This document shows, in pieces, positions 13,760-36,117 of a stretch of DNA of 42,877 bases. Position numbers and translations under genes: made by a program. Origin of the DNA: Sulfolobales archaeon (GTDB lineage: Archaea; Thermoproteota; Thermoprotei_A; Sulfolobales; AG1); assembly GCA_038881635.1 (NCBI GenBank), contig JAVZPJ010000009.1:1-42877 (forward strand), read 5' to 3'. Position 1 is the stretch's first letter; every line of letters starts with the position of its first letter. The notes beneath the pieces were generated by a model. The model saw only the letters and a program-made list of their open reading frames with translations. It made no database searches and was not told where the DNA came from.

Positions 13760-13762
13760 CCT

Positions 13763-13784: not shown

Positions 13785-13800
13785 TTTTCGGGTTGTGATT

Positions 13801-15204: not shown

Positions 15205-15224
15205 ACTTTAAATAAGCTAAATAA

Positions 15225-15233
15225 CTTATAAAG
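15225..15233 (-). promoter_or_regulatory. TATA box of the class III aminotransferase gene
   Basis: CTTTATAAG on the minus strand, centred about 25 bases from the TTG at 15204. It supports that start and a leaderless transcript. Confidence 0.5.
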
Positions 15234-15320
15234 AGAATTATAGATCTATTGTATAGAATACAAAAAAATATGAAACATATATATATCTCGTCTAAATCTA
15301 TCAAGATACGAGGATCTAAT

Positions 15321-15653: not shown

Positions 15654-15655
15654 TC

Positions 15656-17152: not shown

Positions 17153-17157
17153 GGAGC

Positions 17158-18936: not shown

Positions 18937-18944
18937 AGAATTCT

Positions 18945-19241
18945 ATGAAGATTATCGTGAGACTATATGGAGTTCTTAGAAGTCTTGCGGGAGATAGAGA
19001 GAGGATCGAGATAGAATTAGATGAAAGAGATGATCTGAGATTGATTCGTTTAATAGAAAGACTTCTAGAAGAATATCCTGAGCTGAGGAGATATATTAGC
19101 GTAGAAGATGACAAGCTTAGAGTCAGAGGAGTAAGTATAATACTAAATGGACAGCATATAATGTTTCTAGAAGGAGAGAATACATTATTAAAAAATGAAG
19201 ATATAATAGATCTAATCCCACCCGTATCAGGAGGGATCTAA
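18945..19241 (+). CDS. MoaD/ThiS-like ubiquitin-fold protein
   Basis: A 98-residue beta-grasp protein: VRLYGVLRSLAGDRERIEIEL, a central ILNGQHIMFL strand and a C-terminal DIIDLIPPVSGG end. MoaD-type proteins donate sulfur to molybdopterin/tungstopterin through a thiocarboxylated terminal Gly-Gly, and AOR genes are often followed by such a protein. Here one extra residue, Ile, follows the Gly-Gly, so it would need trimming or has another role. It lies 8 bases after the AOR gene in the same operon. Confidence 0.88.
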   Translation: MKIIVRLYGVLRSLAGDRERIEIELDERDDLRLIRLIERLLEEYPELRRYISVEDDKLRVRGVSIILNGQHIMFLEGENTLLKNEDIIDLIPPVSGGI

Positions 19242-19379
19242 ATTTCTGAGAGCATAAGCCATGCTATCTCTAGCTAGATATCAGAAGGCTAGAAATACTT
19301 GAACCACCTCGATCACTCGTCTAGAGAGACAGCAGATCTATGTATCTGGAAGATTCTTTTGATCGAATAAAGATCCTGT

Positions 19380-20294: not shown

Positions 20295-20640
20295 ACAACT
20301 CTATGAATAAAACAGCATATCACTAATCTATCTCTAGAAGATCTGTTGAAAAACAAGGCTAGAGCTCAAGAAAACAATTTAGGAGATAGTATTCTAGAAG
20401 AGAACATAGACCCTGCATATCGAGGTATCTGGGTCACATATTCACCGCTAGTAGAAATAATATTTTGAAGACTGACGACCTACTGCTTAGAGTCTAGAGA
20501 CCTCTTATAATCTGCAGTCAAAGAATTCTCTACTCAAGTACGTAGAACGAGCTTGTAAAGTTAACTGAGCTCACAGAAATACCAGAAGGAGTAAAGAGCT
20601 GATCTCCCGAAACTCATCCTCTCTCTATAAGAGTCATAGG
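20295..20640. other. Intergenic region, no gene seen
   Basis: Stops are frequent in all frames and no stable hairpin or tRNA-like sequence stands out. The right end (CTCTATAAGA at 20622-20631) may belong to the promoter of the nucleotidyltransferase gene, though it is closer than usual to the GTG. Confidence 0.5.
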
Positions 20641-21207
20641 GTGAGAAGGTTCAGCTCTGATAAGATATTATTCGGAAAAAGCCTTAAAACATGGTGGTTA
20701 TTAGCAGTGTCTGAGAAGCTTTGCGAACCCTACGCTTTTCTACTTCGCAGACTTCTCGATGTAGCTATAGAGAGATTTGGTAGCGAGCTCGTCTCGTTCG
20801 TCGTGTATGGTTCTGTTGCTAGGTGCGAGGCCGGTAGGGAGAGTGATATAGACATTCTTATAGTCTTGGAGAACCCTCCTAAGAGCAGGATGAAGAGGCA
20901 GGAGTTGTTTATGCTAGTAGAAGAAGGTGTTGAAGAAGAGGTCGAGAGGCTTAGATCTCAAGGGTATAACGTTGATTTTTCACCTATTATAAAAAGTGTT
21001 AGCGAGGCGAGGAGAGTATCACCAATCTATCTAGACATGGTTGAAGACGCTGTGATACTATATGATAGAGAGAACTTCTTCACAAATATCTTGAACAACC
21101 TCAGAGAGAAGCTCAGAGAACTTGGAGCAGAGAGAGTAAGATGTGGTAGAAAATGGTATTGGAGACTTAAGAGAGACTATAAATTTGGTGAGGTAATAGA
21201 GCTGTGA
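20641..21207 (+). CDS. MNT-type nucleotidyltransferase (HEPN/MNT module)
   Basis: A 188-residue nucleotidyltransferase-fold protein with the active-site motif VVYGSVARCEAGRESDIDILI (Gly57-Ser58, Asp69, Asp71) and a third acidic residue in YNVDFSP. In HEPN/MNT toxin-antitoxin systems this partner AMPylates and silences the HEPN ribonuclease. The GTG start is without a clear ribosome site. Its stop overlaps the start of the HEPN gene (GTGA), as expected for a coupled pair. Confidence 0.85.
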   Translation: MRRFSSDKILFGKSLKTWWLLAVSEKLCEPYAFLLRRLLDVAIERFGSELVSFVVYGSVARCEAGRESDIDILIVLENPPKSRMKRQELFMLVEEGVEEEVERLRSQGYNVDFSPIIKSVSEARRVSPIYLDMVEDAVILYDRENFFTNILNNLREKLRELGAERVRCGRKWYWRLKRDYKFGEVIEL

Positions 21208-21629
21208 ACAACATATCTATGGCACAATCCTACCTAAGACAAGCTGAAGAGAGAATTCGCCACGCGAAAGAAGCACTTGATAGAGGTAACTATCCTTACG
21301 TAATTAGGCAGTGCCAAGAGTCGGTTGAACTACTTCTTAAAGCAGCGCTGAGATTAGTTGGTGTTGAGGTGCCGAAATGGCGTGATGTAGGGCCTGTTCT
21401 CAGAAGAGAAGCTCAGAGATTCCCCGAATGGTTTCAAGCCGAGATACCTGCATTAGCACGTATATCGAGGAAGCTACGTAGAGAAAGAGAACCTTCTATG
21501 TACGGAGATGAGGAAAGCGGTATCCCGCCCGACGAGCTCTATGATAGATCTGATGCAGAAGAAGCACTTGACTACGCATCAAAAGTCTACAGCATAGTAA
21601 TCAAGCTAATACAGCAGCACAAAACCTGA
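21204..21629 (+). CDS. HEPN domain protein
   Basis: A 141-residue helical protein: SYLRQAEERIRHAKEALDRGNYPYVIRQCQESVELLLKAALRL is typical of the HEPN fold, including the QCQESVE helix. The canonical Rx4-6H ribonuclease motif is not obvious, so this is closer to the non-catalytic or divergent HEPN group; a KLRREREPSMYGDEE segment occupies the region instead. It may be a toxin controlled by the upstream nucleotidyltransferase. GTG at 21204 overlaps that gene; ATG at 21219 (MAQSYLRQAEE) is also plausible. Confidence 0.82.
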   Translation: MNNISMAQSYLRQAEERIRHAKEALDRGNYPYVIRQCQESVELLLKAALRLVGVEVPKWRDVGPVLRREAQRFPEWFQAEIPALARISRKLRREREPSMYGDEESGIPPDELYDRSDAEEALDYASKVYSIVIKLIQQHKT

Positions 21630-22181
21630 ATCGCGTTAGCTTATTCTAAAGACCTAAACTCCTACTATTATAGTCAGTAGCTATCTGCTAACCTAGAGAA
21701 CACTAGTACCTCTTAATAATTGCATAAGTAGCATATATTGAAGATCACAGCATAAGGTCTTTAAACAATTCTTATCCCAACCTCATATACTTTTCAAATA
21801 TATCATCTAAATTCGAAAATTTCTTTACTTATTACACGAAGTAAATTAATCATGTTTTTAGGCTTAGCCAGCCGTGAAGAGGTAGCCATAGCTAGCTTAG
21901 TATTCTAGCAACATTAGCACTGAGTAGAGCTGAAGAATTGCTAAAGCATTTCGTAGCTAGAGATGAATTTGAACTTGAGAAACACTCTCTATCTTACCCT
22001 ACTTCTTCAACTATCTTATTTCGATAGAGCTAGAGCTCTACTCCATGTAGCTCATCTGCTACGAACGCTTCGGCGAGGTCTGGTTCTCTCAGCGAGTTTT
22101 TGATCCTCTCAATGATCGTAGTCATTAGCGTGTTGGTAGCAAACTTACAGAATCAATAGCTAGAGTCGGGGTTTGTGAAGT
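21630..22181. pseudogene. Non-coding stretch with broken coding fragments
   Basis: No intact gene. On the plus strand, 21859-21890 (LASREEVAIASLV) and, in another frame, about 21909-21990 (LALSRAEELLKHFVARDEFE) read like pieces of a small helical protein separated by frame changes and stops. On the minus strand, about 22143-22036 gives FATNTLMTTIIERIKNSLRE and on to a stop, also protein-like. I cannot name the families. The region separates the HEPN/MNT pair from cbiB and looks like decayed accessory DNA. Confidence 0.4.
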
Positions 22182-23114
22182 CTATAGATACAGCGATCTC
22201 GCTATCACAACTACTACTAGCCATGTTAATACTGCTATCCTAGCTATCTTCAGAGCTCTATCTATATCATTTTTATCAGGATATCTAGCATCTTCATTAA
22301 TCTTGTAATACCCTATCTTCTCAAGAGCTACTCCTAGAGCTCCTGCTATAGCTGATATAGGATATCCCGCATTAATACTCTCAGTCTTCCTCCTATCTCT
22401 AACTAGGATTCTAAAAGCTCTACCGATCTCTCCTCCCGCTATAGGGGTTAGGAGAACTATGAGTATCGCGGTGATCCTAGCTGGAAGATAGTTTACCATG
22501 GTATCTGCTTTCGCGGAAAACCATCCTACATCTCTAAACTCGATATTCTTATAACCCAGAGCACTATCTAATGTGTTTACTAATCTCTGGAAGAGAGCTC
22601 CTAGAGGTCCTAAGAATAAGAAGTAGAATAAAGGTGATATATATCCATCCACAAGACTTTCAGCAAGAGATTCTATAGATGCTGAAGCTATGTGAGCTCT
22701 CCCAAGCTCTCTAGTATCTCTTCTAACAATCTGCTGAGCCCAGTATCTTGCGCACTCGATATCATCTGTCTCAAGACATGATCCCACTCTCCCTACTATA
22801 TCTAGAAGAAGCTTGATCGAGAAAGAAGTCTTCAGAACATATGCTGATACTAAGATGAATAATATAGTATTCATCTGAGAGATCTGAAGTAGAAATGCGT
22901 AGAAGATCATGTGAGATGATACTACTAAAAACCATGTCACAACACCTCTAGCTCTCGAAGAATAAGGTCTACCGATCTTAAGAGCCATCACGTATGCTGT
23001 GTGCACAGGATGTATCCTGAGCATGAAACCTCTGTGATAGGGGTATAAGAGATCCATTAGATGAGCTAGGAGAAGCACTGCTAAGAACTCGTAGAATGAG
23101 AGCCACAACATCAA
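22182..23114 (-). CDS. cbiB: Adenosylcobinamide-phosphate synthase CbiB/CobD-type membrane protein
   Basis: A 310-residue membrane protein with hallmark features of CbiB: RDTRELGRAHIASASIESLAESLVDG, then PLFYFLFLGPLGALFQRLVNTLDSALGYK, and ADTMVNYLPARITAIL. CbiB joins the aminopropanol arm to cobyric acid to form cobinamide (phosphate). It is the missing member of the cobT-cbiS-cobY-cobD-cobS operon, yet lies 10.6 kb below cobS on the same strand. A decayed copy of its 5' end remains next to cobS. The upstream leader is shared with that copy, so the island may have removed it from its operon promoter. Confidence 0.92.
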   Translation of the reverse strand: MMLWLSFYEFLAVLLLAHLMDLLYPYHRGFMLRIHPVHTAYVMALKIGRPYSSRARGVVTWFLVVSSHMIFYAFLLQISQMNTILFILVSAYVLKTSFSIKLLLDIVGRVGSCLETDDIECARYWAQQIVRRDTRELGRAHIASASIESLAESLVDGYISPLFYFLFLGPLGALFQRLVNTLDSALGYKNIEFRDVGWFSAKADTMVNYLPARITAILIVLLTPIAGGEIGRAFRILVRDRRKTESINAGYPISAIAGALGVALEKIGYYKINEDARYPDKNDIDRALKIARIAVLTWLVVVVIARSLYL

Positions 23115-23164
23115 AGGATAATCTCCTCAAGAACCTTATCTCAGCACGTCAACCTAAAAGTCTA
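23029..23164. repeat. Island-flanking repeat, intact copy (cbiB 5' end and leader)
   Basis: The first 85 or so bases of cbiB plus about 50 bases of leader are recognisable again at 33618-33724. In the leader (23121-23164) 38 of 44 bases match by eye; in the coding part CTCTGTGATAG and TAAGAACTCGTAGAA are shared exactly. Confidence 0.75.
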
Positions 23165-23175
23165 TCATAGTAGCT

Positions 23176-23337
23176 CTACAACATCACAGATATCGAAAGA
23201 CCTAGCTTAGAAACCACAATAAATACCATCAGAAGAACTACCGCACTCAAATGACCTAATAATCTAATCATAAAACCTAAAACCTCAAGAACCGTTAGAA
23301 TAACAATTACATTCTCACCTTCAGACGCAAGCTTCAT
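23176..23337 (-). CDS. Possible small membrane protein (53 residues)
   Basis: An uninterrupted frame from ATG to TAG encoding a hydrophobic peptide with two potential helices (NVIVILTVLEVLGFMI and LSAVVLLMVFIVV) joined by RLLGHL. It starts 50 bases downstream of the symporter gene on the same strand and lies at the left edge of the inserted island. I know no family. It may be an accessory peptide of the symporter or a relic. Confidence 0.35.
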   Translation of the reverse strand: MKLASEGENVIVILTVLEVLGFMIRLLGHLSAVVLLMVFIVVSKLGLSISVML

Positions 23338-23386
23338 CTTAACCAGATAAAGTATGTAAAAGTTTTAGACTCCACTATGATTTAGG

Positions 23387-24790
23387 TTAGGATTTACCTT
23401 TAGACCACAAGTAAGAGCCTGTCATGAATAGCACTGCATTTACTGCCAGTCCTAGACCTATAGGTCTTACATCAGCGAATCCATCTGGCCACCCTATATA
23501 GAAGGCGTATCCAACTGCCACCATTAAGCTCCCAATTATGGCTATTATAGCTGCTCTTGGTGATGGCTTAGACCAGTAGAGGCCTAGTATTGTGGGTATG
23601 AATAGAGATGATGATAATATTAGGTATGCTATGTCTAGAGCTATTAATATTTCTTGTACGTAGATCGCTAGTAGTATTCCTAGAATTCCTAGGACGACAT
23701 TTAATGCTACTATAATGTACGTCATTACTTTCTCCTCTAATCTCCTGAGAGCTCCTAGGATATCGTATGTTATGAGTGTTGATGTAGCTATTAATGCTCC
23801 ATCAGCCGTACTCATGAATGCGGCGAACATTGCGGCAATGATGAGCCCTGCTAGGCCGGCTGGTAGGATATCTACAGCTAACTTAGGCATGGCTAGTCTA
23901 GGACTCTCTAAGCCACCGGCATAGTATAGGTATGCTAATATTCCAATAAATGTAGCTGCTAGAGCATATATTACTCCATAGATTCCAGCTATAACCGTCC
24001 CATTAACCCCGATTCTAGTATCTCTAGCTGTTAGAACTCTCTGCCATATATCCTGGCCTAGCATTAAGCCGAAGAAGAATAGCAGAAACCATGTTAGGAT
24101 CATATCGTAGCCTACATGCGTGAGGGATAGATAGCCTTCAGGAAGCATACCTAAGGAAAGACCCTTCTCGGATACCGTTAGATACCCGAATATAGGTAGA
24201 ATTATGATTACGCCTAGGGTCATGAGAAGCCATTGAACTAAATCAGTTAATGTAACCGACCACATGCCACCGAGAGCTACGTAAGCTACTACTACTAATC
24301 CTCCAACTAGAGTTCCAACCTCAAAGGATATGCCTAGGAGCACTGATGTGACGGTACCGATAGCTATCATTTGAGTGACGAATATCATTAACGTGTATAT
24401 AGCGATGACAATAGCCCCTATATACCTAGTTATCCTATCATACCTCTTCTCCAGAAACTCAGCCATGGTATATATTCTTAGTGGTATGATCTTCCTAGCT
24501 ACTATAAGACCACAGGCTATGACACCTAAGCTTATCATTATAACCATCCAAGACCCAGATATACCATACTGATATCCTAGCCTAGCAGATCCTATAGTAC
24601 TAGCTCCTCCAAGAACAACTGCTGCCATAGCTGGGACGTAGAGTAGATATGTTAATCGCCTATCAGCTAGCAGGTAATTGTCTAAGGATTTTATAGCTCT
24701 TCTCTCAGATAATAAGCCAATTATAAGCATAGAAACCATGTACCCGACTACAACGACCATGTCTAAGGCTGTGACACCCGTACAGACCAC
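23387..24790 (-). CDS. Sodium:solute symporter (SSS family), island copy
   Basis: A 467-residue protein with about 12-13 helices. SLDNYLLADRRLTYLLYVPAM and GGASTIGSARLGYQYGISG match helix 1-2 of SSS proteins; ALGGMWSVTLTDLVQWLLM is the diagnostic middle segment; AFMSTADGALIATSTLITYDI matches the Na2-site helix. It is only distantly similar to the symporter at 15656, so it is not a local duplication. The GTG start is 25 bases below a TATA (GTTTAAATATC), indicating a leaderless message. It is divergent from the pentein and carbamoylase genes and probably imports their substrate. Confidence 0.92.
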   Translation of the reverse strand: MVCTGVTALDMVVVVGYMVSMLIIGLLSERRAIKSLDNYLLADRRLTYLLYVPAMAAVVLGGASTIGSARLGYQYGISGSWMVIMISLGVIACGLIVARKIIPLRIYTMAEFLEKRYDRITRYIGAIVIAIYTLMIFVTQMIAIGTVTSVLLGISFEVGTLVGGLVVVAYVALGGMWSVTLTDLVQWLLMTLGVIIILPIFGYLTVSEKGLSLGMLPEGYLSLTHVGYDMILTWFLLFFFGLMLGQDIWQRVLTARDTRIGVNGTVIAGIYGVIYALAATFIGILAYLYYAGGLESPRLAMPKLAVDILPAGLAGLIIAAMFAAFMSTADGALIATSTLITYDILGALRRLEEKVMTYIIVALNVVLGILGILLAIYVQEILIALDIAYLILSSSLFIPTILGLYWSKPSPRAAIIAIIGSLMVAVGYAFYIGWPDGFADVRPIGLGLAVNAVLFMTGSYLWSKGKS

Positions 24791-24813
24791 CCCTTAGAAT
24801 AGTAGAGAGAAGT

Positions 24814-24854
24814 GATATTTAAACTTTTAAAAACTTTAATACCCAAATTATACA
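24814..24854. promoter_or_regulatory. Divergent promoters of the symporter and pentein genes
   Basis: Two TATA elements stand back to back: GATATTTAAAC at 24814-24824 (read on the minus strand for the symporter) and AAATTATACA at 24845-24854 for the pentein gene. Each is centred about 25 bases from its start codon, giving two leaderless messages from one 80-base spacer that could be co-regulated. Confidence 0.5.
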
Positions 24855-24872
24855 CTTTAATTAACGGTTCAT

Positions 24873-26300
24873 ATGGGGTTAGAGTCTATGAGTCTAGATT
24901 TATCTAGATTTATCGAGTCTCTTGAAGGGATAGATTATACTAGTGATGATACGCTGTTGAAGGCTCTCAATCTAATTCTAGACCCTCCTATCTCTACTCT
25001 TAGCTTTAATGATGTTATAATTGATGGCTATAAACTCCCCCAGCCCAGGCTTGAATATATTGAAGAGAACATTATTAGAAGTGTACTAGGAGAGAATGGT
25101 ATAGACTTGTTCATGTCTCTGGATTTAGTTATTAGCATGCTACCTCTTAGCAAGCTGGAATCACTTACATCTAGTAGTAGGGGTGCAATTCTAGAAATGC
25201 TGAGAGAAGAAGCTTATAATACTGCTAGAAGCTTAGCTGAACTCTATAGAATCAAAGCAGAAGATCTCAGAGGCGAGGATGATGTTAAGAGAGAGATTCT
25301 AATGCTAGCACCCTCTATTAGATTACTAGATACTGTTAGGGGAGAGTGGGATAAATGGGTCTGGAAGAGAACCGACCGCTATGGGCGTGAGTCTCCAGAT
25401 CCTAAACTAATTCTAGATGACATCCTTAGGATAGGTAATGCTCTTAGAGACCGTGGAATAAAAGTTTATATTGCTACAGACATGGAACATGATTATGGAG
25501 ATGTTCTAAAACCATATGATATAATCTCGGTTAAGATTCCTCAGAGATTAGCAAAGATTGTATATGTTAGAGATCAGAGTGTCACATGGTTTAAGAACCC
25601 TATACTGGGTAATATGGCTCTAGATTTTAGGCGTGGAGAGGAGGCGGTTTTAAGCGAGATATATAGTAAGCTTAATCTAAGACCACTCTTTAGGATCAGA
25701 TGGGTGGCTGAGGGTAGTAGGCTTATTAGAGCTTATATGGAGGGAGGTAACTTCTTCGTTATAAGAACCGAGTACGGTACAGCGGTCTTGACAGGTGTTG
25801 GTGTTAGAGGTTCTAATCATGCTACATTTAAAATCTTATCTAGTATACTACCAGAAGACGTTAGACTTATCGGCGTCCCCCTAGCTGGATATATTAAAGA
25901 TTGGGCTTCTGGCGCTGTTCATTTAGACGTAGTCTTCTCGTATATCGGTGATGTAGGTGGAGAGCGTTTAGCTCTCGTAGATCCTTCTAGGATAGGATTT
26001 TATTCTCTACTAGAGTATAGAAGGAGAGAAGGCGCTTTTAGGATTATAGAGATGCCCAGATTAATGAAGGAATTAGGTGTCAGGCTAGATGAGCCTCCCC
26101 GTGAAGGCCAAAGTAGTATTACTATGATTAATGCTTTAAATCTAGGTAGGGGTAGGATAGTATCAGATTCATTTAATGAGCTTATTAATAGATATCTAGA
26201 GAGAATGTATGGTATTGATGTTATTAGGGTAGATATCCCCCAGCTAGAAGCTGGTGGCGGTGGTGTTAGATGCTCTACGAGAGAGCTCTGGAGAAGCTAA
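24873..26300 (+). CDS. Arginine-deiminase-superfamily (pentein) hydrolase, substrate unknown
   Basis: A 475-residue protein whose second half carries the pentein active-site motifs: IVYVRDQSVTWF (the TRDP-like Asp), AYMEGGNFFVI (EGGN in place of the usual EGGD), AVHLDVVFSYIG (catalytic His near residue 350, then Asp) and the C-terminal GGGGVRCSTREL with nucleophile Cys467. Penteins such as arginine deiminase turn guanidino groups into ureido groups plus ammonia, or transfer amidino groups. The first 170 residues are helical and unlike classical ArcA. The downstream partner is an N-carbamoyl hydrolase, suggesting it makes a carbamoyl compound. ATG start with a leaderless promoter; the next gene begins inside it. 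Confidence 0.85.
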   Translation: MGLESMSLDLSRFIESLEGIDYTSDDTLLKALNLILDPPISTLSFNDVIIDGYKLPQPRLEYIEENIIRSVLGENGIDLFMSLDLVISMLPLSKLESLTSSSRGAILEMLREEAYNTARSLAELYRIKAEDLRGEDDVKREILMLAPSIRLLDTVRGEWDKWVWKRTDRYGRESPDPKLILDDILRIGNALRDRGIKVYIATDMEHDYGDVLKPYDIISVKIPQRLAKIVYVRDQSVTWFKNPILGNMALDFRRGEEAVLSEIYSKLNLRPLFRIRWVAEGSRLIRAYMEGGNFFVIRTEYGTAVLTGVGVRGSNHATFKILSSILPEDVRLIGVPLAGYIKDWASGAVHLDVVFSYIGDVGGERLALVDPSRIGFYSLLEYRRREGAFRIIEMPRLMKELGVRLDEPPREGQSSITMINALNLGRGRIVSDSFNELINRYLERMYGIDVIRVDIPQLEAGGGGVRCSTRELWRS

Positions 26301-27529
26301 AGAGTAGAGGTTTAAACCTAGATATAGATAGTTTCCTTAGAACATTTAATAGGATAAGTAGTATTGGATGGGTTGAGGGATATGGTTCTATTAGACTTGC
26401 ACTCACTAGTGAGCATATTATGGCTCGTAGAGAGTTGTTAAAGGAGCTTGAAGCTATAGGTGCTAGGGTATTATTCGACGAGGCAGGGAATATTATAGCT
26501 GAGATCGGATCAGGTGGTAGAGCCATAGCTATAGGCTCGCACCTAGACAGTGTGCCTGGCGGTGGTAGGTTTGATGGGGTATTTGGCGTTATCGCAGGAT
26601 TAGAGATTCTAAGAGCTATTGTTAGGAGTGGCTTGAGACTTAAGCATAGGCTTGTCCTCGTAGATTTCAATAATGAGGAGGGTTCTAGATGGAATCCTCC
26701 ACTACTAGGCTCGGCTCTAACTGTAGGAGTTTATATGAGAGACTTCATCTACTCTAGATTAGACTCCAATGGGGTATCCTTTGGAGAAGCTCTAGAGAGG
26801 TCAGGATTTAAAGGTAGTGCTGAGAATAACCTATCTACGAACCCCCCAAGATTCTATATAGAGCTACACATAGAGCAGGGTCCAGAACTCTATAGAGAGG
26901 GATACGATATAGGCATCCCCCAGGGTATAGTAGGATTAAGAGTGCTAGAGTTTATATTTAGAGGGAGGCAGGATCATGCTTCAAGCCATATTAGCCTAAG
27001 GAGAGATCCGGTAGTAGGCTTGTCTAAAGCAGTACTACGACTTAGAGAGTATGCTCTCAAAAACCAGGATAAGCTTAGAATAACAGTAGGAGATATAAGC
27101 GTAAAACCAGGGAAATTCAATGTAGTACCAGCGCTATCTAAGATGACAGTAGATATTAGGAGCTATGATCCACAAGTTATAGATGAAGCAACAAAGTACG
27201 CTATAAAGGTGGCAGAGAACATAGGAGAAGAAGAGAATCTAAGCGTAGACCATAGAGAGCTCTGGACAATACCAAGGATACTCTTCGACCCCGATGTCAC
27301 CTCAGTCATAGAGGAGTCTTGCAGAGATCTTGGATTCAAATATAAGAGAATGTGGAGCTGGGCAGGTCACGATGCGCAGAATATGAGTAGGATCGCTAAG
27401 ACAGCAATGATATTCGTCCCATCCGTTGAAGGCATAAGCCATAGTAAAGACGAGTACACTAGAGAAGAAGACTTAGTTAGAGGATTAATACTACTAGCTG
27501 AAGTAGTTCTAAGATTAGATAAGATCTAG
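26270..27529 (+). CDS. N-carbamoyl amino acid amidohydrolase (M20 family, HyuC/AllC type)
   Basis: A 419-residue binuclear metal amidohydrolase. Motifs in order are AIGSHLDSVPGGGRFDGVFGV (metal His and Asp near 90), FNNEEGSRW (near 135), LHIEQGPELYREGYDIGIPQGIVG (near 200), the lid-domain GRQDHASS and SWAGHDAQNM. The EEGSR and HIEQGP signatures separate the carbamoylase/allantoate-amidohydrolase group from peptidases. It should cleave an N-carbamoyl amino acid or ureido acid to amine, CO2 and ammonia. The start overlaps the pentein gene by 31 bases, so the enzymes are coupled. Confidence 0.92.
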   Translation: MLYERALEKLKSRGLNLDIDSFLRTFNRISSIGWVEGYGSIRLALTSEHIMARRELLKELEAIGARVLFDEAGNIIAEIGSGGRAIAIGSHLDSVPGGGRFDGVFGVIAGLEILRAIVRSGLRLKHRLVLVDFNNEEGSRWNPPLLGSALTVGVYMRDFIYSRLDSNGVSFGEALERSGFKGSAENNLSTNPPRFYIELHIEQGPELYREGYDIGIPQGIVGLRVLEFIFRGRQDHASSHISLRRDPVVGLSKAVLRLREYALKNQDKLRITVGDISVKPGKFNVVPALSKMTVDIRSYDPQVIDEATKYAIKVAENIGEEENLSVDHRELWTIPRILFDPDVTSVIEESCRDLGFKYKRMWSWAGHDAQNMSRIAKTAMIFVPSVEGISHSKDEYTREEDLVRGLILLAEVVLRLDKI

Positions 27530-27871
27530 CTCATCCACGAGACATGTTCTAAGCTGGTTAGAGTACTGAGATTACTGCTAAGAAGCTGTAGAAGGCTTAA
27601 GTGCTCTTAGTAGTTTCTCTTAGAGATCCTTGAATACATTCATAGCCTTCTTTAAATTTCAAACCATTACTAGTGATGAGCAGAATCTTATAATATTCTC
27701 TAGAGACACTAGAGATCTCAAGAAGGAGTTCACGGAGATCATTCTAATACTGCCAGCTACAGTTGTGACCTTAATTCATATTCGGGGTAATAATTAGAGA
27801 AAGAGAAAAGCATAAGGATGAGGAGGCCAATAAGCTAATACTAGCTCTCTGCTTGAGAGTCACTTATATAC
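27530..27871. other. Intergenic region with possible gene relic
   Basis: No intact gene. The plus-strand stretch about 27650-27796 reads through 45 or so codons (RDTRDLKKEFTEIILILP then TVVTLIHIRGNN) without a start and could be a relic. No convincing terminator hairpin was seen between the convergent M20 and livF genes. Confidence 0.4.
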
Positions 27872-28564
27872 TTATATGAATATTAGTTTTTTAAGTAGTT
27901 CTAGTTCTTTTAAGGCTTTTTCAGTTGTGTCAAAGTATTCTAACTTGCCTGTTCTCATTATTCCTATTTTGCTTACATATTTTAACGCTATTTTAAGTCG
28001 AGAGCCTGGTTCCACTATTATCATGGTTTTGCCTTCCTCGTTTAGTCTTTTAAGCATTCTATATATTTCCTCAGTCATTAATGGTGATACTCCTTCAGTA
28101 GGCTCGTCTAAGAGTATGAGTTTAGTTTCTACTAGTAGGGATCTGAGTATGCCAACTATTTTTCTCTCGCCTCCGCTAAGCTTGTCGGTAGGTCTGTTAA
28201 GAAGCCCTTCTATTCTCGGGTATATTTTTTTGATTCTATCTATTTCTATGATCTTTCTTCCAGCAGCTAATTGCATATTCTCTAATGTTGTCAGACCATG
28301 GTATAATCCTCCAGTATCTGATATATATAGTATTCCGAGTCTCGCTATCTTATATGTTGGAAGCCTTGTTATGTCTATGTCTTCAAAGACTATTCTCCCC
28401 TCTTTCCTTAGCTCTATATTCATAATAGATTTTAGAAGTGAAGTCTTGCCCGCTCCATTACTCCCTACGATGGCTATCATATCTCCACGTTCTACTCTAA
28501 AGTTTATAGAGAAGAGCACTTGAATAGCTCCGTAGTATCCATTTAAATTTTCTACTGTGAGCAT
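27872..28564 (-). CDS. livF: Branched-chain amino acid-type ABC transporter ATPase LivF
   Basis: A 230-residue ATPase: Walker A GSNGAGKTS, a LYISDTGGLYHGLTTLENM segment at the LivF-specific position, signature KLSGGERKIVGILRSL, Walker B LILLDEPTEGVSP. The usual VEQN after the switch is VEPG here. It is the last gene of a five-gene Liv importer on the minus strand, overlapping livG by one base. Liv-type importers carry branched-chain amino acids, other amino acids, amides or urea, so the ligand must be found by experiment. Confidence 0.9.
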   Translation of the reverse strand: MLTVENLNGYYGAIQVLFSINFRVERGDMIAIVGSNGAGKTSLLKSIMNIELRKEGRIVFEDIDITRLPTYKIARLGILYISDTGGLYHGLTTLENMQLAAGRKIIEIDRIKKIYPRIEGLLNRPTDKLSGGERKIVGILRSLLVETKLILLDEPTEGVSPLMTEEIYRMLKRLNEEGKTMIIVEPGSRLKIALKYVSKIGIMRTGKLEYFDTTEKALKELELLKKLIFI

Positions 28565-29259
28565 TACTCGCCACCCAGGTATATTTCTTTCACTAGCTTA
28601 TTCTCCCTTATATTTTCGGGTTTTCCATCAGCTATTATTCTACCTCTATCCATAACTATTATCCTATTGACTAGAGTGAACACTACGTCCATATCATGTT
28701 CTATAACTATCAGGCTTAGCGACTTCTTAAGCTCTGAAAGCACCTTAACCATATTAAGTCTATCTTCAACACCTAGACCTGCTACAGGCTCATCTAGTAT
28801 GAGCATTCTAGGCTTTAAGAGTAGGGAAATGCCTAGCTCCACGAGTCTCTGCACCCCCAGAGGTACTTCGACCAGACGTTTATCCAGATATCTCTCAATC
28901 CTTAAAATCTCAGCTACGCTTTTCACCTCATCTGTAGTACCTGCTTTCAAAGCAGCTAAAGCTAGATTCTCTCTCACTTTCAAAACTGGGAAGAGATTGA
29001 CGATCTGAAAAGTCCTAACAAGGCCGAGTCTCGAGATCTTGTGAGGCGGGAGGCGGGTTATATCAATGCCATCGAAAAACACTCTACCTTCATCAGGCTC
29101 TAACTTCTTAGTTATAATATTGACTAATGTAGTCTTACCAGCACCATTAGGTCCTATTATGGCTACAGTCTCTCCCCTGCTGACAGTGAAGGAGACTTTA
29201 TCTACGGCTACAAAACTTCCAAATCTCTTTGTTACATCCTCAACTCTTAAAATCTCCAT
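28564..29259 (-). CDS. livG: Branched-chain amino acid-type ABC transporter ATPase LivG
   Basis: A 231-residue ATPase: Walker A GPNGAGKTT, LVRTFQIVNLFPVLKVRENLALAA (LivG-like), a degenerate signature VPLGVQRLVELG at the place where LivG proteins have the PYGxQR form, Walker B MLILDEPVAGLG and the switch IVIEHDMDVVFTL. It pairs with LivF on the two permeases. Its start overlaps the livM end by 13 bases. Confidence 0.9.
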   Translation of the reverse strand: MEILRVEDVTKRFGSFVAVDKVSFTVSRGETVAIIGPNGAGKTTLVNIITKKLEPDEGRVFFDGIDITRLPPHKISRLGLVRTFQIVNLFPVLKVRENLALAALKAGTTDEVKSVAEILRIERYLDKRLVEVPLGVQRLVELGISLLLKPRMLILDEPVAGLGVEDRLNMVKVLSELKKSLSLIVIEHDMDVVFTLVNRIIVMDRGRIIADGKPENIRENKLVKEIYLGGE

Positions 29260-30230
29260 CTCCTGTAAACCCCCAATCTAAACCTTCCAGTCAAGCTTTC
29301 GAGGAATCCCAGAAGCCCTCCTCTAAAGAATAATATCATCGCTAAAAGAGCTACTCCGAGTAGGAGCATCCAATAGTCTGCTAATCTAGCTACGACAGTG
29401 GTGAGAGAAACAAATATTATAGCTCCAACCAGAGGGCCTAGGAAATAGCTTGAACCTCCTATTAGCGACATTACTAGAGGCTCGGTCCCAAAAATCCAGT
29501 AAGCCACATCAGGAGTGACAACACCATAAAACACAGCATAGAGAGCACCTGCCAAGGCAGAGACGACTCCTGAAACCGCTAAGGCCATCATCCTGAGCGT
29601 GAAAGTAGAATATCCGAGGAAGGGTAGCCTGTCCTCGTTAGCTCCTAGAGCCCTGAGAAGAAGCCCATATCTAGACCTGTTTAGCATATAGAGACCTAGC
29701 ATTACAACAACAAAGAATGCTAATGTAAAATAATAGAAGACCGTGGGCGTTGACAAATCTACGAGAACTCCACGCTTGGGGATGCCTACAAGACCGTCAC
29801 TCCCGCCAGTTAGCCAGCGTAGCTTGACAAGGGCAGACCAGAATATCATGCTCAAAGCTAGTGTTAGAATAGCAAAGTATACTCTCCCGTGCTTCAGAGT
29901 TAAAATACCTACAATTATTGATGCTAGTAAAGCTATGGGAATCGAGAAAAACACGCCAACTAAGGGATCCCTATAGACATTCAGCGTAAATAAAGCCACA
30001 GAGTAAGCGCCAACTCCAAAGAAAAGCCCGTGACCGAAGGATAGAAGCCCTGCGTAGCCGAAGAGAATGTTATAACCCATGGCAAACATTCCGAAAATCA
30101 TTATTAAGATAGCCATATACATATAGAAGCTGTGGCCGGTGAATGGAATAATACTTAGGAGACCTATGAGCAGGAGTAGTACAATGATGTTGCCGTCTAT
30201 TAAAGCCCTTAAACGGAGAGGTATGAGCAT
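29247..30230 (-). CDS. livM: Branched-chain amino acid-type ABC transporter permease LivM
   Basis: A 327-residue membrane protein with about 9-10 hydrophobic segments. GYNILFGYAGLLSFGHGLFFGVGAY and LTGGSDGLVGIP are diagnostic for LivM, as is the RALGANEDRLPFLGY loop that couples to the ATPase. Six bases separate its start from the livH stop. Confidence 0.92.
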   Translation of the reverse strand: MLIPLRLRALIDGNIIVLLLLIGLLSIIPFTGHSFYMYMAILIMIFGMFAMGYNILFGYAGLLSFGHGLFFGVGAYSVALFTLNVYRDPLVGVFFSIPIALLASIIVGILTLKHGRVYFAILTLALSMIFWSALVKLRWLTGGSDGLVGIPKRGVLVDLSTPTVFYYFTLAFFVVVMLGLYMLNRSRYGLLLRALGANEDRLPFLGYSTFTLRMMALAVSGVVSALAGALYAVFYGVVTPDVAYWIFGTEPLVMSLIGGSSYFLGPLVGAIIFVSLTTVVARLADYWMLLLGVALLAMILFFRGGLLGFLESLTGRFRLGVYRRWRF

Positions 30231-30236
30231 ACAGTA

Positions 30237-31100
30237 TCACCTCTCACCGAAGAGACCTTGAGGCCTGAATAATAATATGAGGGTTGCTATAATGTATAAT
30301 ATCACTATGTCTAGCTCCGGTACTATTAAGATTAATATGCTCGAGAAAACCCCTACCACCATAGCCACAATGTAAGCGCCAGTAATGCTACCAAGTCCGG
30401 CTATTACCACTATTATGAAAGCGGTAACTATTAGATAATCAGCGAGCCCTGGACCAACACTTATGAGGGGTACTGTAAGAGCTCCACCAAGACCTGCGAG
30501 TGCTGTCCCGATGAAGAATACTAGAGTATAGAGAAGTCTTGTGTTGATTCCTAAAGCCTCGCTCATCACAGGATCCCGCCATACAGCTCTAATTCTTAAA
30601 CCTGTTAGAGTATGATTCATGAATATTGTTATGGCTATAAATAGTAGGAACCCTATCACTATTATCAGAGCCATATAATAGTTTATGATGATCCCGCCAA
30701 CACTCACACCCCTACTAAGGATTTCAGGTATAGAAACATAGATCACACCCTTACCCCATACGAGTTTCTGAGCCTCATTAGCTATGAGGGCTACACCGAA
30801 TGTAGCTAGAAGCTGGTACACGGTTTCAAGCTTATACACTCTCCTAATAATTGCGATCTCAACGATGGCACCTAAAGCTCCCATTAGTATCATGGTGGTT
30901 AAAAGAGATGCTATGAAATTACCTGTGTAAGCGTAAAACGTATACATCAGATAAGATCCTGTAACATAGAAAGCTGCATGAGCAAAATTTATAACCCTAA
31001 CGACACCGAAGATCAGGACCAGACCTAGAGCCAGTATCCAGTAGAGGGAGCCTTTATAGAGACCTACAAAAGCCTGAACCAAAAAAGGTGTTAAATCCAC
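30237..31100 (-). CDS. livH: Branched-chain amino acid-type ABC transporter permease LivH
   Basis: About 287 residues and eight or so helices. LYWILALGLVLIFGVVRVINFAHAAFYVTGSY is the classical LivH beginning, and TGLRIRAVWRDPVMSEALGINTRLLY is the ATPase-coupling loop. The ribosome site GGAGGTG lies just before a GTG at 31100; the longer frame to 31118 would place the ribosome site inside the protein, so the shorter form is preferred. Follows the binding-protein gene with close spacing. Confidence 0.9.
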   Translation of the reverse strand: MDLTPFLVQAFVGLYKGSLYWILALGLVLIFGVVRVINFAHAAFYVTGSYLMYTFYAYTGNFIASLLTTMILMGALGAIVEIAIIRRVYKLETVYQLLATFGVALIANEAQKLVWGKGVIYVSIPEILSRGVSVGGIIINYYMALIIVIGFLLFIAITIFMNHTLTGLRIRAVWRDPVMSEALGINTRLLYTLVFFIGTALAGLGGALTVPLISVGPGLADYLIVTAFIIVVIAGLGSITGAYIVAMVVGVFSSILILIVPELDIVILYIIATLILLFRPQGLFGER

Positions 31101-31120
31101 TAAAGAAAACACCTCCAAAC

Positions 31121-32416
31121 TTACTCGAAGGGTGGAAATCTATAGTAAAGCATAGCTGGCACGGCTCTCAAATCCTCTAAGAGGGGTACTTCAACACCTT
31201 TATGAACTATCCTTCCATAAGGCACCTCATAGACTGCCTGATGATCCTCGGGCCTTACCCATCTAACCCCGGCTGGAGTTAATATTACCAAGCCTTCTAA
31301 AGCTTTCAATACAACATCTGGATCTAGAGATGCAGAATTCTCCAACGCAGCCTTTATCATGTAAACCGCCGAGTAAGTAGTCTCGGCTGAGTATGCTGGA
31401 AGTCTGCCCCATCTAGCTTTAAACCTGTTTACGAATTCCCTATTAATCTCGGTAGGCGGGTAAAGCCATATATACCTAGCGCTAACCCATGTACCCAACT
31501 CTGCAGTAGGATAGCCTGCCCCTAAAGAATATGCTACATCCATGGAATACCCGAGGGTTGAAATTACAGCCTTAAACTTTCTATAACCTCCCATAGCAAC
31601 CAGCTGTCTCTGGAGGGTCACAAGCTCAACAGCCCATATGCTCGTATGTAAGGCTTCGGCATCTGAGGCTAGCAAAGCGCTGATGAATGGGGTGAAGTCT
31701 TCAGTTCCGAACTTTGGCCATTGCTCACTTACAAACTCAACGTCAGGTCTGAGAGTCTTAAGAGTCTTAGTAAATAGCTCCCATGAAACCCTCCCAAACT
31801 CATAGTCTCCGTTAATCCCAGCCCATCTTCTCACGGGCAAGTCCTTGGCTATGTAGGCTGCCAGGATCCCATCTTGATATACTGGAACGCTGGACCTGAA
31901 TATGAGCTTCTTACCCTTCTTAAATACCAGCTCTTCTGTAAGCCTGTGGGTAGCAGCATGTGTGACAACTACTATCTTACCCAGCTCGTCGACTATTTCA
32001 CCAACTTTTAAAGCATTACCGCTAGAGTCTATGCCCACAATGAAATCAACATTCTCAACAGAGACAAGTTCTCTAGCTTGCTTCACTACATCAGCCATCT
32101 CGTCTCTGAATACGAGCTCGACTCTGCTACCTAGAATACCACCTCTAGCGTTGATCTCCTCAGCAGCCAGCCTAGCACCTTGTTCTATAAACTCTCCATA
32201 AGTAGACCAGAGACCAGACCTTATTCCTATAACTCCAATCTTAATAGTATCCTTTGGTAATTTTCTCTCGACAGCTCCGGGAGCTGTAACTGTTACTGTT
32301 CTGGTGATCTCCTGTACTTCAGAAGGTCTGGTAACCCATCCGAGGACTGATCCCACAACCAAGCCGGCAACGCCTGCACCAAGAATTTTAATGAAACTCC
32401 TTCTATCTATACTCAT
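31121..32416 (-). CDS. livK: ABC transporter substrate-binding protein (LivK/Peripla_BP_6 type) with Tat-type signal
   Basis: About 431 residues. The N-terminus MSIDRRSFIKILGAGVAGLV is a twin-arginine signal with the RRSFIK core and a hydrophobic stretch, followed by a threonine-rich linker. The mature part has the periplasmic-binding-protein type 1 pattern: IKIGVIGIRSGLWSTYGE, GARLAAEEINARGGILG, VELVFRDE, and later YSAETTYSAVYMIKAAL. It would capture a solute outside the membrane for LivHMGF. ATG at 32416 is about 37 bases below a TATA (TAAATATTTAA, 32448-32458). Export in folded form via Tat is unusual for most bacterial LivK proteins but common in archaea. Confidence 0.9.
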   Translation of the reverse strand: MSIDRRSFIKILGAGVAGLVVGSVLGWVTRPSEVQEITRTVTVTAPGAVERKLPKDTIKIGVIGIRSGLWSTYGEFIEQGARLAAEEINARGGILGSRVELVFRDEMADVVKQARELVSVENVDFIVGIDSSGNALKVGEIVDELGKIVVVTHAATHRLTEELVFKKGKKLIFRSSVPVYQDGILAAYIAKDLPVRRWAGINGDYEFGRVSWELFTKTLKTLRPDVEFVSEQWPKFGTEDFTPFISALLASDAEALHTSIWAVELVTLQRQLVAMGGYRKFKAVISTLGYSMDVAYSLGAGYPTAELGTWVSARYIWLYPPTEINREFVNRFKARWGRLPAYSAETTYSAVYMIKAALENSASLDPDVVLKALEGLVILTPAGVRWVRPEDHQAVYEVPYGRIVHKGVEVPLLEDLRAVPAMLYYRFPPFE

Positions 32417-32873
32417 ATTTGCTACCCTATAACTATTATTATACACCTTAAATATTTAGAAAGATAAAAGAGGGAGAAGTTAAATTATTTTTAAATTATT
32501 TATGAAACCTTACGCACACACAGCAAGAAATGCCCTTCGAATAACTAGATCCATATAAATGCTGAGACTCTCCTTAAAGTAAAATGCTCGAGGCGTAAGA
32601 TGTTTAAGGCTGCTCTTAAACTCTCGAGAACTATGCAAGCCTGAGACATATGCGAGAGGAAGATATAAGGCGACCGCATCAGAGCTAAACCCTAAGGTGC
32701 TCGAGCTATATAGATGCTGAAACACTGAAGTATAGTCAGACATAACATGCTTGGACTGCTGAGATGTTTTTAACTCCTTTTAACTTAACTTTTAGTATAC
32801 TAAAGCTCCTATATATCATATGTAAAAAATTTAAATGTTTTTATTATTAAAATTATTTTTGGTGTTGCATATA
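32417..32873. other. Intergenic region with two outward promoters and a possible relic
   Basis: The left end carries the livK TATA (32448-32458) and the right end the AIM24 TATA (AAATTTAAAT, about 32827-32836). Between them, 32606-32716 on the plus strand reads open for about 35 codons (LLLNSRELCKPETYARGRYK and onward to ELNPKVLELYRC), which looks like a piece of a protein, but has no start and ends at a stop. A minus-strand frame at 32510-32743 looks spurious. Richer in G+C than other spacers here. Confidence 0.4.
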
Positions 32874-33551
32874 ATGATCGATTATGTCATTGAGAGAGGT
32901 CCTGCATACTCGATTTTAAAGGTTAAGCTCAGCCCTGGGATATCTATAACTGTAGAGCCTGGAGCTTACATGCTACATAAGGGTGATATTGATGTTCAGA
33001 CGTCTACTATGGGAGCTGCGAGTGCTATAGCTAGGAGGTTATTTGGAGGCGAAAGTTTGTTCCTGAATACTTTCAGAGCTAGGAGTAGTGCTGAGATATG
33101 GATTGCTCCTGAGGTTCCTGGAGATATAGTTGGTGTCAGGCTTGATAATGGAGAGCTTATAATACAAGATACTAGCTACCTGGCACATGTTGGAGATATA
33201 AAGATCGGTATTGCTTGGAGAGGGTTTAAAGGTGTTATTGCTGAAGGCGAGCTAGTATGGCTTAAAGCCTCAGGTAGCGGACTGGTGTTTATTAATGCTT
33301 ACGGAGCAATAGAAGAGCTTAAACTTGATAGAGGAGAGAAGATCACAGTAGATAATGGACACTTCGTAGCACTAGATGGCACTATAAAGTGGGGAGTAAG
33401 GAAGCTCGGAGGCTGGAAGACGTTCTTCCTTGGAGGTGAAGGAGTAGTAGTAGACGTTGAAGGTCCAGGCAGAGTATGGGTACAAACCAGAACACTACCA
33501 GCACTAGCATATATACTATACAAGTATATGAGAAATTATATGAGGAGATGA
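32874..33551 (+). CDS. AIM24/TIGR00266 family protein
   Basis: About 225 residues, an all-beta protein: PAYSILKVKLSPGISITVEPGAYMLHKGDI, SLFLNTFRARSSAEIWIAPEVPGDI and SGLVFINAYGAIEELKLDRGE match the AIM24 family (mitochondrial biogenesis AIM24 and bacterial relatives), a trimeric beta-barrel-like fold of unclear function. The ATG at 32874 is preferred over an upstream TTG-like extension because a TATA box overlaps the extension. It is the last gene at the right edge of the island and points towards cobS. Confidence 0.85.
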   Translation: MIDYVIERGPAYSILKVKLSPGISITVEPGAYMLHKGDIDVQTSTMGAASAIARRLFGGESLFLNTFRARSSAEIWIAPEVPGDIVGVRLDNGELIIQDTSYLAHVGDIKIGIAWRGFKGVIAEGELVWLKASGSGLVFINAYGAIEELKLDRGEKITVDNGHFVALDGTIKWGVRKLGGWKTFFLGGEGVVVDVEGPGRVWVQTRTLPALAYILYKYMRNYMRR

Positions 33552-33617
33552 TGAGAAGAACCTCCAAGTGAAGAATGACTAGAACAACCCTAAGCGTAGA
33601 TGCTGAAGCTGTATGTG

Positions 33618-33724
33618 CTCTGTGATAGAAGTATATAGACCTATATAAGAACTCGTAGAACTAGAACAATAACCTCATAAACCTCCTCACGAACCTTATC
33701 TCGACACATCAATCTAAAAGTCTT
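33618..33724 (-). pseudogene. Decayed copy of the cbiB 5' end next to cobS
   Basis: The stretch matches cbiB start and leader (23029-23164): CTCTGTGATAG at 33618-33628, TAAGAACTCGTAGAA near 33646-33660, and the leader 33681-33724 with 38 of 44 bases identical by eye. About 27 bases of the coding part are missing and the start codon is lost. It lies on the minus strand directly below cobS, where an intact cbiB would be expected. Confidence 0.75.
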
Positions 33725-33727
33725 GAA

Positions 33728-33750
33728 CTCTAGAGCGGGCGGGGGGTTAG
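33728..33750 (+). repeat. Hairpin repeat, orphan IS605-like end, copy 3 (degenerate, inverted)
   Basis: CTCTAGAGCGGGCGGGGGG then TTAG resembles the complement of 13763-13784 (TTTAGAGCGGGAGGAGG then TTAG). The cobS stop codon (33730-33732) and last codons lie inside it. It marks the junction between cobS and the cbiB relic. Confidence 0.4.
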
Positions 33751-34512
33751 AGATAGTATTAGGAGTGATGATATTCTCACAAATTCATAGGAGAAGCCTA
33801 GAACATCTCCATTAATAAATCCAAGTCTTCTCTCAGCATCCATAGCTATTATGAAGCCTGCTATGAGAGGTAGGATGAGTATCATGATAAGAGATGTTCT
33901 CAAGCCTTGTAAAAAGATTAGCGAGATCGATAGAAATACATATATGATGATATTCAGAATAGCATTTCTAAAGATCTTAGAATAGAAGGTGAAGTATCTT
34001 GCCATACCATTGTAAGGTTCTTCTCTCCCGAAGTAGCATGCTATGAACATAGCTTCCGAGGCTGCAACATATGATAGCATGATATATATAGCGGTTTGAA
34101 CAATCTCTATAGAGCTGACCATGATCTGAAGACTTGAGTAGTTTATCATCAGACCGATAATTAGAGATAATACAGAGAAAGTCCCTCTCCTAGGATCCTT
34201 AATTATTTTAAGAGCTTCCTCACCTCTTCTCAGAGATCCTATGACATCTGAGTAGTCTGCAAACCCATCCAGATGAATCCCACCGGTTACTAGGACGTGT
34301 AAAGCGATCAGCATTATAGAGATTAGAAGAGGATTTAGACCGGCTGATACCATCAGGATCAAAGCAGATGAAGCTATGAAACCTTCTAGAACTCCTATAA
34401 ATGGAACCATGAAGAATACCCTGGCTGCTTCTTCGAGATCTGAGTAAGAATTCTTGATAGGAATTCTAGTTAGCAGAGATATCAGAGATAGAAAACCTCT
34501 TAGAATACTCAT
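33730..34512 (-). CDS. cobS: Adenosylcobinamide-GDP ribazoletransferase CobS
   Basis: A 260-residue membrane protein. TGGIHLDGFADYSDVIGSLRRGEEALKIIKDPRRGTFSV is the CobS catalytic region (Mg-binding DGFAD), flanked by hydrophobic helices. It joins alpha-ribazole to adenosylcobinamide-GDP, completing the lower ligand of cobalamin. The start overlaps the cobD stop (ATGA). The C-terminal LTPRPL is encoded by the hairpin-repeat-like sequence and may have been altered by an insertion event. Confidence 0.93.
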   Translation of the reverse strand: MSILRGFLSLISLLTRIPIKNSYSDLEEAARVFFMVPFIGVLEGFIASSALILMVSAGLNPLLISIMLIALHVLVTGGIHLDGFADYSDVIGSLRRGEEALKIIKDPRRGTFSVLSLIIGLMINYSSLQIMVSSIEIVQTAIYIMLSYVAASEAMFIACYFGREEPYNGMARYFTFYSKIFRNAILNIIIYVFLSISLIFLQGLRTSLIMILILPLIAGFIIAMDAERRLGFINGDVLGFSYEFVRISSLLILSLTPRPL

Positions 34513-35591
34513 TCTCGAAGCACCTCTTCATAGGCTGATATGAGAATATTATTCTCATCTCTAAGTCTCACAGAGATCCTGGCATGATAAGGTGTTAGAT
34601 ATGGGTAGACTGAGGCATCTCTTATCACTATTCTTCTTCTCATAAGAAGATCAGAGATCTCTTTAGTAGTTCTACCATGCTTCACCAATATATATGGTGT
34701 AGAAGATCTATAGATCTTAACTCCTAATCTTCTTAAACTCTCACTCACATACTCTACCTCTCTCACGATAGTATCTCTAGACAGTTCTACAAAGGATCTA
34801 ATATCTCTAGAATACTCTCTTAAAAACCTTGCGAAAACATTCTCAGCAATAGAATTAACATTCCAAGGAGATCTGATATCATCAAAAAGCTCTGCAAGAG
34901 ATCTATTCGATGTGTAGAGAAAGCCTATTCTCAAACCTGGAACTGAGAATATCTTTGTAAGACTTCTCACGATAACAAGATTCTCATATCTCTCAGCTAG
35001 CTTAAATCCTCTACCCTCCTCACACTCGCTACATAGATCCTGGAATGCTTCATCGAGTAGTATCACAGAATCTCTGAGATTCTCTAGAACCTCCTCAAGA
35101 ACCTTATTATCTAGAATAGCTCCTGTAGGGTTATTAGGATCAGAGATTAGAACAAGAGATCTCGTATTTCTAATCTTCTTCAAATTCTCAAGAGCTTCAT
35201 ATGAGATCACATATCTATCCCCTGATTCTATGTATGGCACTGATATCATGGGAATATTAAGAGCTCTAGCGAGACATCTGTAATCTCCGAAGGTAGGCTC
35301 GAAAACAATTAGATATTCAGGTCTTAGAGATAGAACTGCTATGTAGAAAGCTTCAGCAGCTCCGTTAAGAGGTATTATACCCTCGTAATCTAATCTATAG
35401 AATTCTGCAATAGATTCTCTAAGAATTCTATACTCATAATCAGGATATCTGCTGTAGATCTCTCTACTAATAGATTCTGATAAAAGCTTCTTCAGAGGAT
35501 CCGGAGCTCCCAGAGGATTTAAAGGTGTTGAGAAATCTATGAAACCCTCAGGAGCTCTCCCACCGTGATGTCTACATCTATCTGCAGACAT
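34509..35591 (-). CDS. cobD: CobD-like PLP threonine-phosphate decarboxylase / aminotransferase
   Basis: A 360-residue class I/II aminotransferase-fold enzyme. The N-terminal HHGGRAPEGFIDFSTPLNPLGAP is typical of the CobD/CobC group; ISDPNNPTGAIL and the PLP Lys in VRSLTKIFSVPGLRIGFLY follow; the RVSVRLRDENNILI-like end (RISVRLRDE) carries the carboxylate Arg. CobD makes aminopropanol phosphate from threonine phosphate. Overlaps with both neighbours show operon organisation. Confidence 0.9.
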   Translation of the reverse strand: MSADRCRHHGGRAPEGFIDFSTPLNPLGAPDPLKKLLSESISREIYSRYPDYEYRILRESIAEFYRLDYEGIIPLNGAAEAFYIAVLSLRPEYLIVFEPTFGDYRCLARALNIPMISVPYIESGDRYVISYEALENLKKIRNTRSLVLISDPNNPTGAILDNKVLEEVLENLRDSVILLDEAFQDLCSECEEGRGFKLAERYENLVIVRSLTKIFSVPGLRIGFLYTSNRSLAELFDDIRSPWNVNSIAENVFARFLREYSRDIRSFVELSRDTIVREVEYVSESLRRLGVKIYRSSTPYILVKHGRTTKEISDLLMRRRIVIRDASVYPYLTPYHARISVRLRDENNILISAYEEVLRE

Positions 35592-36117
35592 TCTCAGCCC
35601 TCCTTAGATCCTCTAGAGTATCTATATCAATGATCTCATCATGATTCAGAGGTATATTAATCCACAAGCCTCTCTCATCATAGAATATCGAGAGCCCTAC
35701 AGGTTCTAGAAGATTCTTTTCAACTCTAACAGCTGTGAAGATCTCAGCTTCATTACCTCTCTCGAAAACACTGTCGAGAAATCTTCTGAGAACATCAATA
35801 CTTCTCACAACAACATCTGCTGATACTATGAGAAGAGGTTTGGGAAGAGATCTCAGAGCCAGAATTAGATCCTCAACATAATCTCTGCCTAGAAGCTCTA
35901 TACAGCTCACATAATCCTCCGAACAGGTCTTCTTAAGAGCTTCTCTAGAACGTTCGGAGAGAAGAATTATAACATGACTGCATAAGATCTCAAGCTGGTT
36001 TAAAAGTCTTAGAATCACAGGTCTTCCACAGACCTCTCTCATAAATTTAAGAGGATCTCCAAATCTACTTCCCACACCACCTGCCATAACCGCGCACGGG
36101 ATCACCTTATCACTCAT
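35578..36117 (-). CDS. cobY: GTP:adenosylcobinamide-phosphate guanylyltransferase CobY
   Basis: A 179-residue nucleotidyltransferase. The N-terminal CAVMAGGVGSRFGDPLKFMREVCGRPVI is the archaeal CobY signature (MobA-like), and IVSADVVVRS supplies the metal Asp. It activates adenosylcobinamide phosphate with GTP and is the archaeal substitute for CobU. It overlaps cbiS upstream and cobD downstream. Confidence 0.9.
   Translation of the reverse strand: MSDKVIPCAVMAGGVGSRFGDPLKFMREVCGRPVILRLLNQLEILCSHVIILLSERSREALKKTCSEDYVSCIELLGRDYVEDLILALRSLPKPLLIVSADVVVRSIDVLRRFLDSVFERGNEAEIFTAVRVEKNLLEPVGLSIFYDERGLWINIPLNHDEIIDIDTLEDLRRAENVCR

Follow-up and report, generated by a model that had tools for sequence, protein, structure and literature searches.

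The cobalamin operon of this Sulfolobales archaeon is interrupted between cobS and cbiB by DNA of foreign origin, and a decayed partial copy of cbiB has been left beside cobS. In the window (the whole stretch of DNA analysed, 42,877 nucleotides), the arrangement is probably best explained as a patchwork of at least three foreign fragments joined at the cobS–cbiB junction with duplication of the target. An acquisition between families with a readable scar is a real finding, mostly explained, and richer than the initial annotation had described.

Split of the cobalamin operon

The genes of the operon occupy the following positions, and matches to protein profiles agree with their earlier identification as cobT, cbiS, a cobY-like gene, cobD, cobS, and cbiB.

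34509–38313, minus strand: cobD, cobY-like, cbiS, and cobT, in overlapping reading frames
33730–34512, minus strand: cobS, intact (TIGR00317 above cut-off)
22182–23114, minus strand: cbiB, intact (PF03186 and NF002281 above cut-off)
23115–23163, minus strand: cbiB leader with a GAGGAG Shine–Dalgarno-like motif, repeated near cobS at approximately 33680–33723

The distance from cobS to cbiB in the window is 10.6 kb. In nearly all of the relatives checked, cobT-cbiS-cobY-cobD-cobS-cbiB form an unbroken run with a cobS–cbiB gap of 32–101 bp. The initial annotation had proposed a comparison of this junction in relatives, among which a cbiB always distant from cobS would have spoken against an insertion, and the comparison favored the insertion: where both genes were on one contig, the gap was ≤101 bp in 24 of 27 relatives, two others had gaps of 255 and 309 bp (measured from weak partial cobS matches), and the cob cluster was reshuffled in the remaining one (G021). 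The same contiguity was observed in the great majority of loci in a second collection in which both genes were found. In the congener (G001), cobS and cbiB are approximately 32 bp apart within an intact six-gene run, which is adjoined by homologues of the window genes at 3.8–11.3 kb. Given this adjacency in the relatives, cobS followed directly by cbiB is the ancestral order and the arrangement in the window is derived; as expected of an acquired island, the insert is absent from the same site in the congener and other relatives. In G021 (L265:4831–11999), cbiB is next to cobT, with cobS at the opposite end; this locus was considered as a second insertion and rejected, because the cluster is merely permuted.

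The intact cbiB, with start candidates TTG at 23114 or ATG at 23111, retains every residue that is invariant in an alignment of ten relatives. Because it also keeps its leader and a ribosome-binding-like motif, the loss of its position in the operon seems to be tolerable.

Decayed copy of cbiB beside cobS

The remnant beside cobS (hereafter pseudo-cbiB) consists of two pieces, which together define the minimum extent of the duplication.

33618–33723, minus strand: piece one, leader and first codons (reads MRLLF*FYEFL, with a stop at codon 6)
33597–33621, minus strand: piece two, cbiB codons ~137–146 (match to 22676–22700)
22676–23163, minus strand: minimum stretch copied to the cobS side (488 bp)

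Positions 33646–33723 align with 23082–23163 on the minus strand with 79% identity over 82 bp. The score of this alignment was 82, whereas shuffled queries scored 19 on average and 32 at most, so that the alignment suggested by the initial annotation is far above chance and the decayed cbiB start that it described is real. No other second copy turned up in the genome besides this repeat (E = 6.7e-14), which begins 6–7 bp past the cobS stop codon and contains no cobS sequence. The duplication is nevertheless longer than the leader and first codons originally recognized, reaching approximately codon 146 of cbiB. The second piece matches the middle of cbiB with a score of 35, which was equalled by none of 2,000 shuffles, and the next best segment of the window scored 25. 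The two pieces join at a shared AGAG, a motif that lies at each boundary of the ~330 bp now missing, indicating that the copy spanned at least 23163–22676 and that the ~330 bp were deleted later. A third cbiB piece at 33551–33596 was considered and ruled out, because the sequence there corresponds to the 3′ flank of the AIM24 gene in the genome G410 (see below).

The cobS–cbiB junctions of eight relatives scored only 14–20 against the pseudogene copy, whereas the two copies in the window scored 80 against each other, which indicates that the duplication arose in the window's own lineage. The copies of the leader repeat differ at 13 of 78 compared sites, which is below the synonymous divergence of the island genes, and the duplication therefore need not predate the transfer.

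Foreign blocks between cobS and cbiB

Most of the insert is made up of three blocks that match DNA of G410, a genome from another family.

23379–27700: block 1, 87.4% identical to G410:C13:13799–18122
23387–24790, minus strand: SSF symporter (block 1)
24873–26300, plus strand: arginine-deiminase-like pentein (block 1)
26270–27529, plus strand: M20 carbamoylase (block 1)
27710–32430: block 2, 87.7% identical to G410:C54:928–5631
27872–32446, minus strand: livF, livG, livM, livH, and livK (block 2)
32835–33551, plus strand: block 3, AIM24 (PF01987), of which 32858–33533 matches G410:C6:8253–8927 with 87.1% identity

The nine genes of the insert are foreign. Their nucleotide identity to G410 is 0.866–0.902 and their dS 0.34–0.51, whereas cobS, cobD, cbiS, and cobT of the two genomes have a dS of ~2 (near saturation) and share 37–55% of their amino acids. 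The inserted genes are thus far closer to a distant lineage than are the genes that flank them, and with dN/dS values of 0.11–0.20 they are under purifying selection. Base composition was uninformative as proof of foreignness, as the GC content of the island genes (0.40–0.43) resembles that of the window (0.41).

The initial annotation had read the insert as a single metabolic island that entered between cobS and cbiB, duplicating the target, one copy of which then decayed. The insertion, the duplication, and the decay are upheld, but the island is not single: in G410, the three blocks lie on three contigs, and the genome's own cobS–cbiB pair is intact on a fourth. This layout, together with truncated neighbors at the seams, does not support a single mobile island that moves as one unit. 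Weaker similarity of block 2 to G410 extends upstream to ~32.52 kb. No source was found for the ~300 bp at 32.52–32.83 kb, and the 215 bp between the cbiB leader and block 1 (23164–23378) had no clear match to cobS, to the DNA downstream of cbiB, or to G410.

In terms of direction, the window copies were closest to G410 in all seven of the proteins compared with several relatives, and the pentein has a G410 homologue with 87% identity. Within the genus of G410, the symporter-pentein-carbamoylase set, Liv, or AIM24 is also encoded by other members. The pentein was not found in the window's own family, AIM24 was not found in the five other members of that family searched (two of them incomplete), and the Liv versions in that family share only 49–67% protein identity. 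This distribution, present in one genus and missing or distant in the other family, suggests that the lineage of G410 was the donor and that of the window the recipient. Against this, the window's LivK is not nested within the donor genus, with identities of 90% between the window and G410, 87% between the window and G433, and 92% between G410 and G433. The loci L242:716–4830 and L197:13974–18000 show that the orientation of the symporter relative to the pentein and carbamoylase genes in G429 is opposite to that in G410 and the window.

Seams and truncated donor neighbors

In G410, the carbamoylase gene is convergent with a class-III aminotransferase gene, and livF is convergent with a VIT1/rubrerythrin-type gene. 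Remnants of these neighbors, and of the gene following AIM24, are preserved at the seams of the insert.

27600–27700, minus strand: decayed C-terminal end of the class-III aminotransferase gene, with a stop and a frameshift inside
27711–27767, plus strand: decayed C-terminal end of the VIT1/rubrerythrin-type gene
33575–33595, plus strand: first codons of the gene following AIM24 in G410 (ATGAGAACAACCCTAGC there), cut at the cbiB seam

The remnants of the aminotransferase and VIT1-type genes abut each other at ~27.70 kb. These broken ends suggest that the donor had blocks 1 and 2 in settings like those in G410 and that the blocks were joined later. At the other end of the insert, the start of the gene following AIM24 runs directly into cbiB sequence at ~33.596 kb. 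As expected of illegitimate capture by end joining or template switching, the seams at 27.70 and 33.596 kb are non-homologous and lie between pieces found apart in the donor, whose layout is known from G410 alone.

Cargo of the insert

The motifs YVRD, EGGN, HLD, and GGGGVRC of the pentein are conserved in nine homologues, with C467, H350, D352, E290, and D234 invariant, and the protein has the fold and the catalytic cysteine, histidine, and acidic residues of an arginine deiminase. Its best structural matches are also arginine deiminases (Foldseek E = 8.7e-11 to 4bof; TM 0.50–0.58). A sequence search against solved structures gave no match. The protein, at 475 residues, differs from arginine deiminase in having an extra N-terminal part, and it scored below both curated arginine deiminase cut-offs (37.7 vs 414 and 32.8 vs 489 bits), with only the broader PF02274 passed. 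The carbamoylase is a member of the allantoate/N-carbamoyl amidohydrolase group. From what is known of these families, the two enzymes could act in sequence on a guanidino compound, yielding first a ureido compound and then a free amine, with release of ammonia, and the symporter and Liv importer could supply the substrates.

Origin of the insert

Transfer and insertion are well supported, and capture in a single episode is likely. In the patchwork reading, an ancestor in which cobS was followed directly by cbiB would have taken up three or more chromosomal fragments of an archaeon belonging to another family, G410 being the closest genome sampled, and these would have been joined end to end at this junction without evident homology. 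At least 488 bp of the target, comprising the leader and ~146 cbiB codons, would have been copied in the process, leaving the cobS side with a useless 5′ half of the gene, whereas the complete cbiB and its leader remained on the far side. The half-gene would then have decayed by point changes and the AGAG-flanked deletion, as would the truncated donor neighbors at the seams, whereas the donor genes that arrived complete stayed under purifying selection. The capture may have occurred during the repair of a chromosome break by end joining or template switching, which would account for the joining of the pieces as well as for the long duplication of the target.

Counting against the patchwork, only one close donor-side genome has been sampled, and its three-locus layout could itself be derived. 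The three loci could instead have arrived on one long donor segment, with the DNA between them lost by internal deletions; an import trimmed in this way would leave similar seams, inside truncated donor genes, and would account for the similar divergence of all the genes. However, this would require the loss of at least ~30 kb (on the relevant sides, contig C13 of G410 accounts for 13.8 kb and C54 for 17 kb), and the target duplication cannot be put down to deletions alone. We regard this course of events as conceivable but rather doubtful.

It is somewhat less probable still that cbiB was duplicated first and that foreign cassettes then gathered singly between the copies, as at a stepwise hot spot. 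The other side of cbiB is also filled, with the stretch at 12.9–21.6 kb lying between cbiB and a pair of genes that are its direct neighbors in several relatives, and a nucleotidyltransferase–HEPN pair at 20.7–21.8 kb is closely similar to DNA of two other families, both of which would suit a site of repeated insertion. A simple tandem duplication, however, should have left DNA from downstream of cbiB upstream of the intact gene, where no significant match to it was found, and the similar divergence of the nine genes from one genome favors one episode.

An integrative element or transposon that used cbiB as its target is very improbable: direct repeats do flank the foreign DNA, but Pfam and NCBIfam scans identified no integrase, transposase, or other recombinase of its own among the genes between them, neither junction has a tRNA, a duplication of at least 488 bp far exceeds usual target or attachment sites, and the insert corresponds to three loci in the nearest genome. 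A chimera in which assembly or binning fused two organisms of the metagenome hardly fits either, even for an 18-contig draft, given that both joins fall at the cobS–cbiB junction, that the repeat, at only 79% identity, is too diverged to mislead an assembler, and that the pseudogene fragments at the seams bear stops and frameshifts.

Other inserts in the contig

A second insert with a similar architecture was found in the same contig.

5931–7243: PIN-domain gene lying between a gene of the PadR type and the former neighbor of the latter, with a direct repeat

The PIN-like gene (the domain match is weak, with 23.0 bits against a cut-off of 23.6) is flanked by a 108-bp direct repeat with 98% identity, which corresponds to the 5′ end of the PadR-type gene. 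In the congener, the PadR-type gene and the former neighbor are 45 bp apart, and a decayed 3′ end of the latter also lies on the far side of the PIN insert. In ~400 kb of the organism's own genome sampled, five close pairs of direct repeats were detected, two of them in this window. A recurrent, recombinase-free capture process in this lineage, which copies 0.1–0.5 kb of a gene junction and leaves both flanking genes intact, is a speculative suggestion, drawn from the common architecture of two inserts (at cbiB and the PIN gene) in one 43-kb contig.

The nucleotidyltransferase–HEPN pair and its flank (20665–21849) share 87–89% DNA identity with genomes from two other families, and this module has therefore moved between lineages as well. 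The region 12917–21629 contains genes for a polysaccharide deacetylase, a class-III aminotransferase, a second SSF symporter, an aldehyde ferredoxin oxidoreductase, and an ornithine-cyclodeaminase-like protein. This set parts cbiB from a diphthamide-synthase-like and asparagine-synthase-like pair, which adjoins cbiB in several relatives, and parts of it co-occur in the congener on a different contig.

Relationship to known processes

The presence of foreign genes inside a conserved operon with its flanks retained resembles the gene-block splitting and mosaic operons produced by horizontal transfer (e.g., PMC4481853), with the difference that the scar is preserved here, in the form of a target duplication, a half-gene, and truncated donor neighbors. 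The joining of foreign DNA at non-homologous ends is shared with homology-facilitated and double illegitimate recombination in natural transformation, as described in work cited in PMC13344027, a paper that itself reports several discontinuous donor segments near each other in one bacterial transformant. These processes are described in bacteria, whereas the present case involves an archaeon from a group of hyperthermophiles, the acquisition of whole operons, and an extensive duplication of the target. DNA import by the Ced and Ted systems is documented in Thermoproteota, with Aeropyrum of the Desulfurococcales among the related orders (PMC9905601); this import is described as feeding homologous recombination, unlike the joining proposed here.

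The locus is a legible record of how a gene set for transport and degradation crossed between archaeal families and entered an operon without the loss of any gene, and in this hot-spring archaeon one can still discern from which lineage the genes came, which pieces were joined, where the seams lie, and how the target was duplicated. It also provides a searchable signature, namely a half-gene copy beside the upstream gene, a foreign block, and an intact downstream gene, which could be used to gauge the frequency of DNA capture without mobile elements in archaea.
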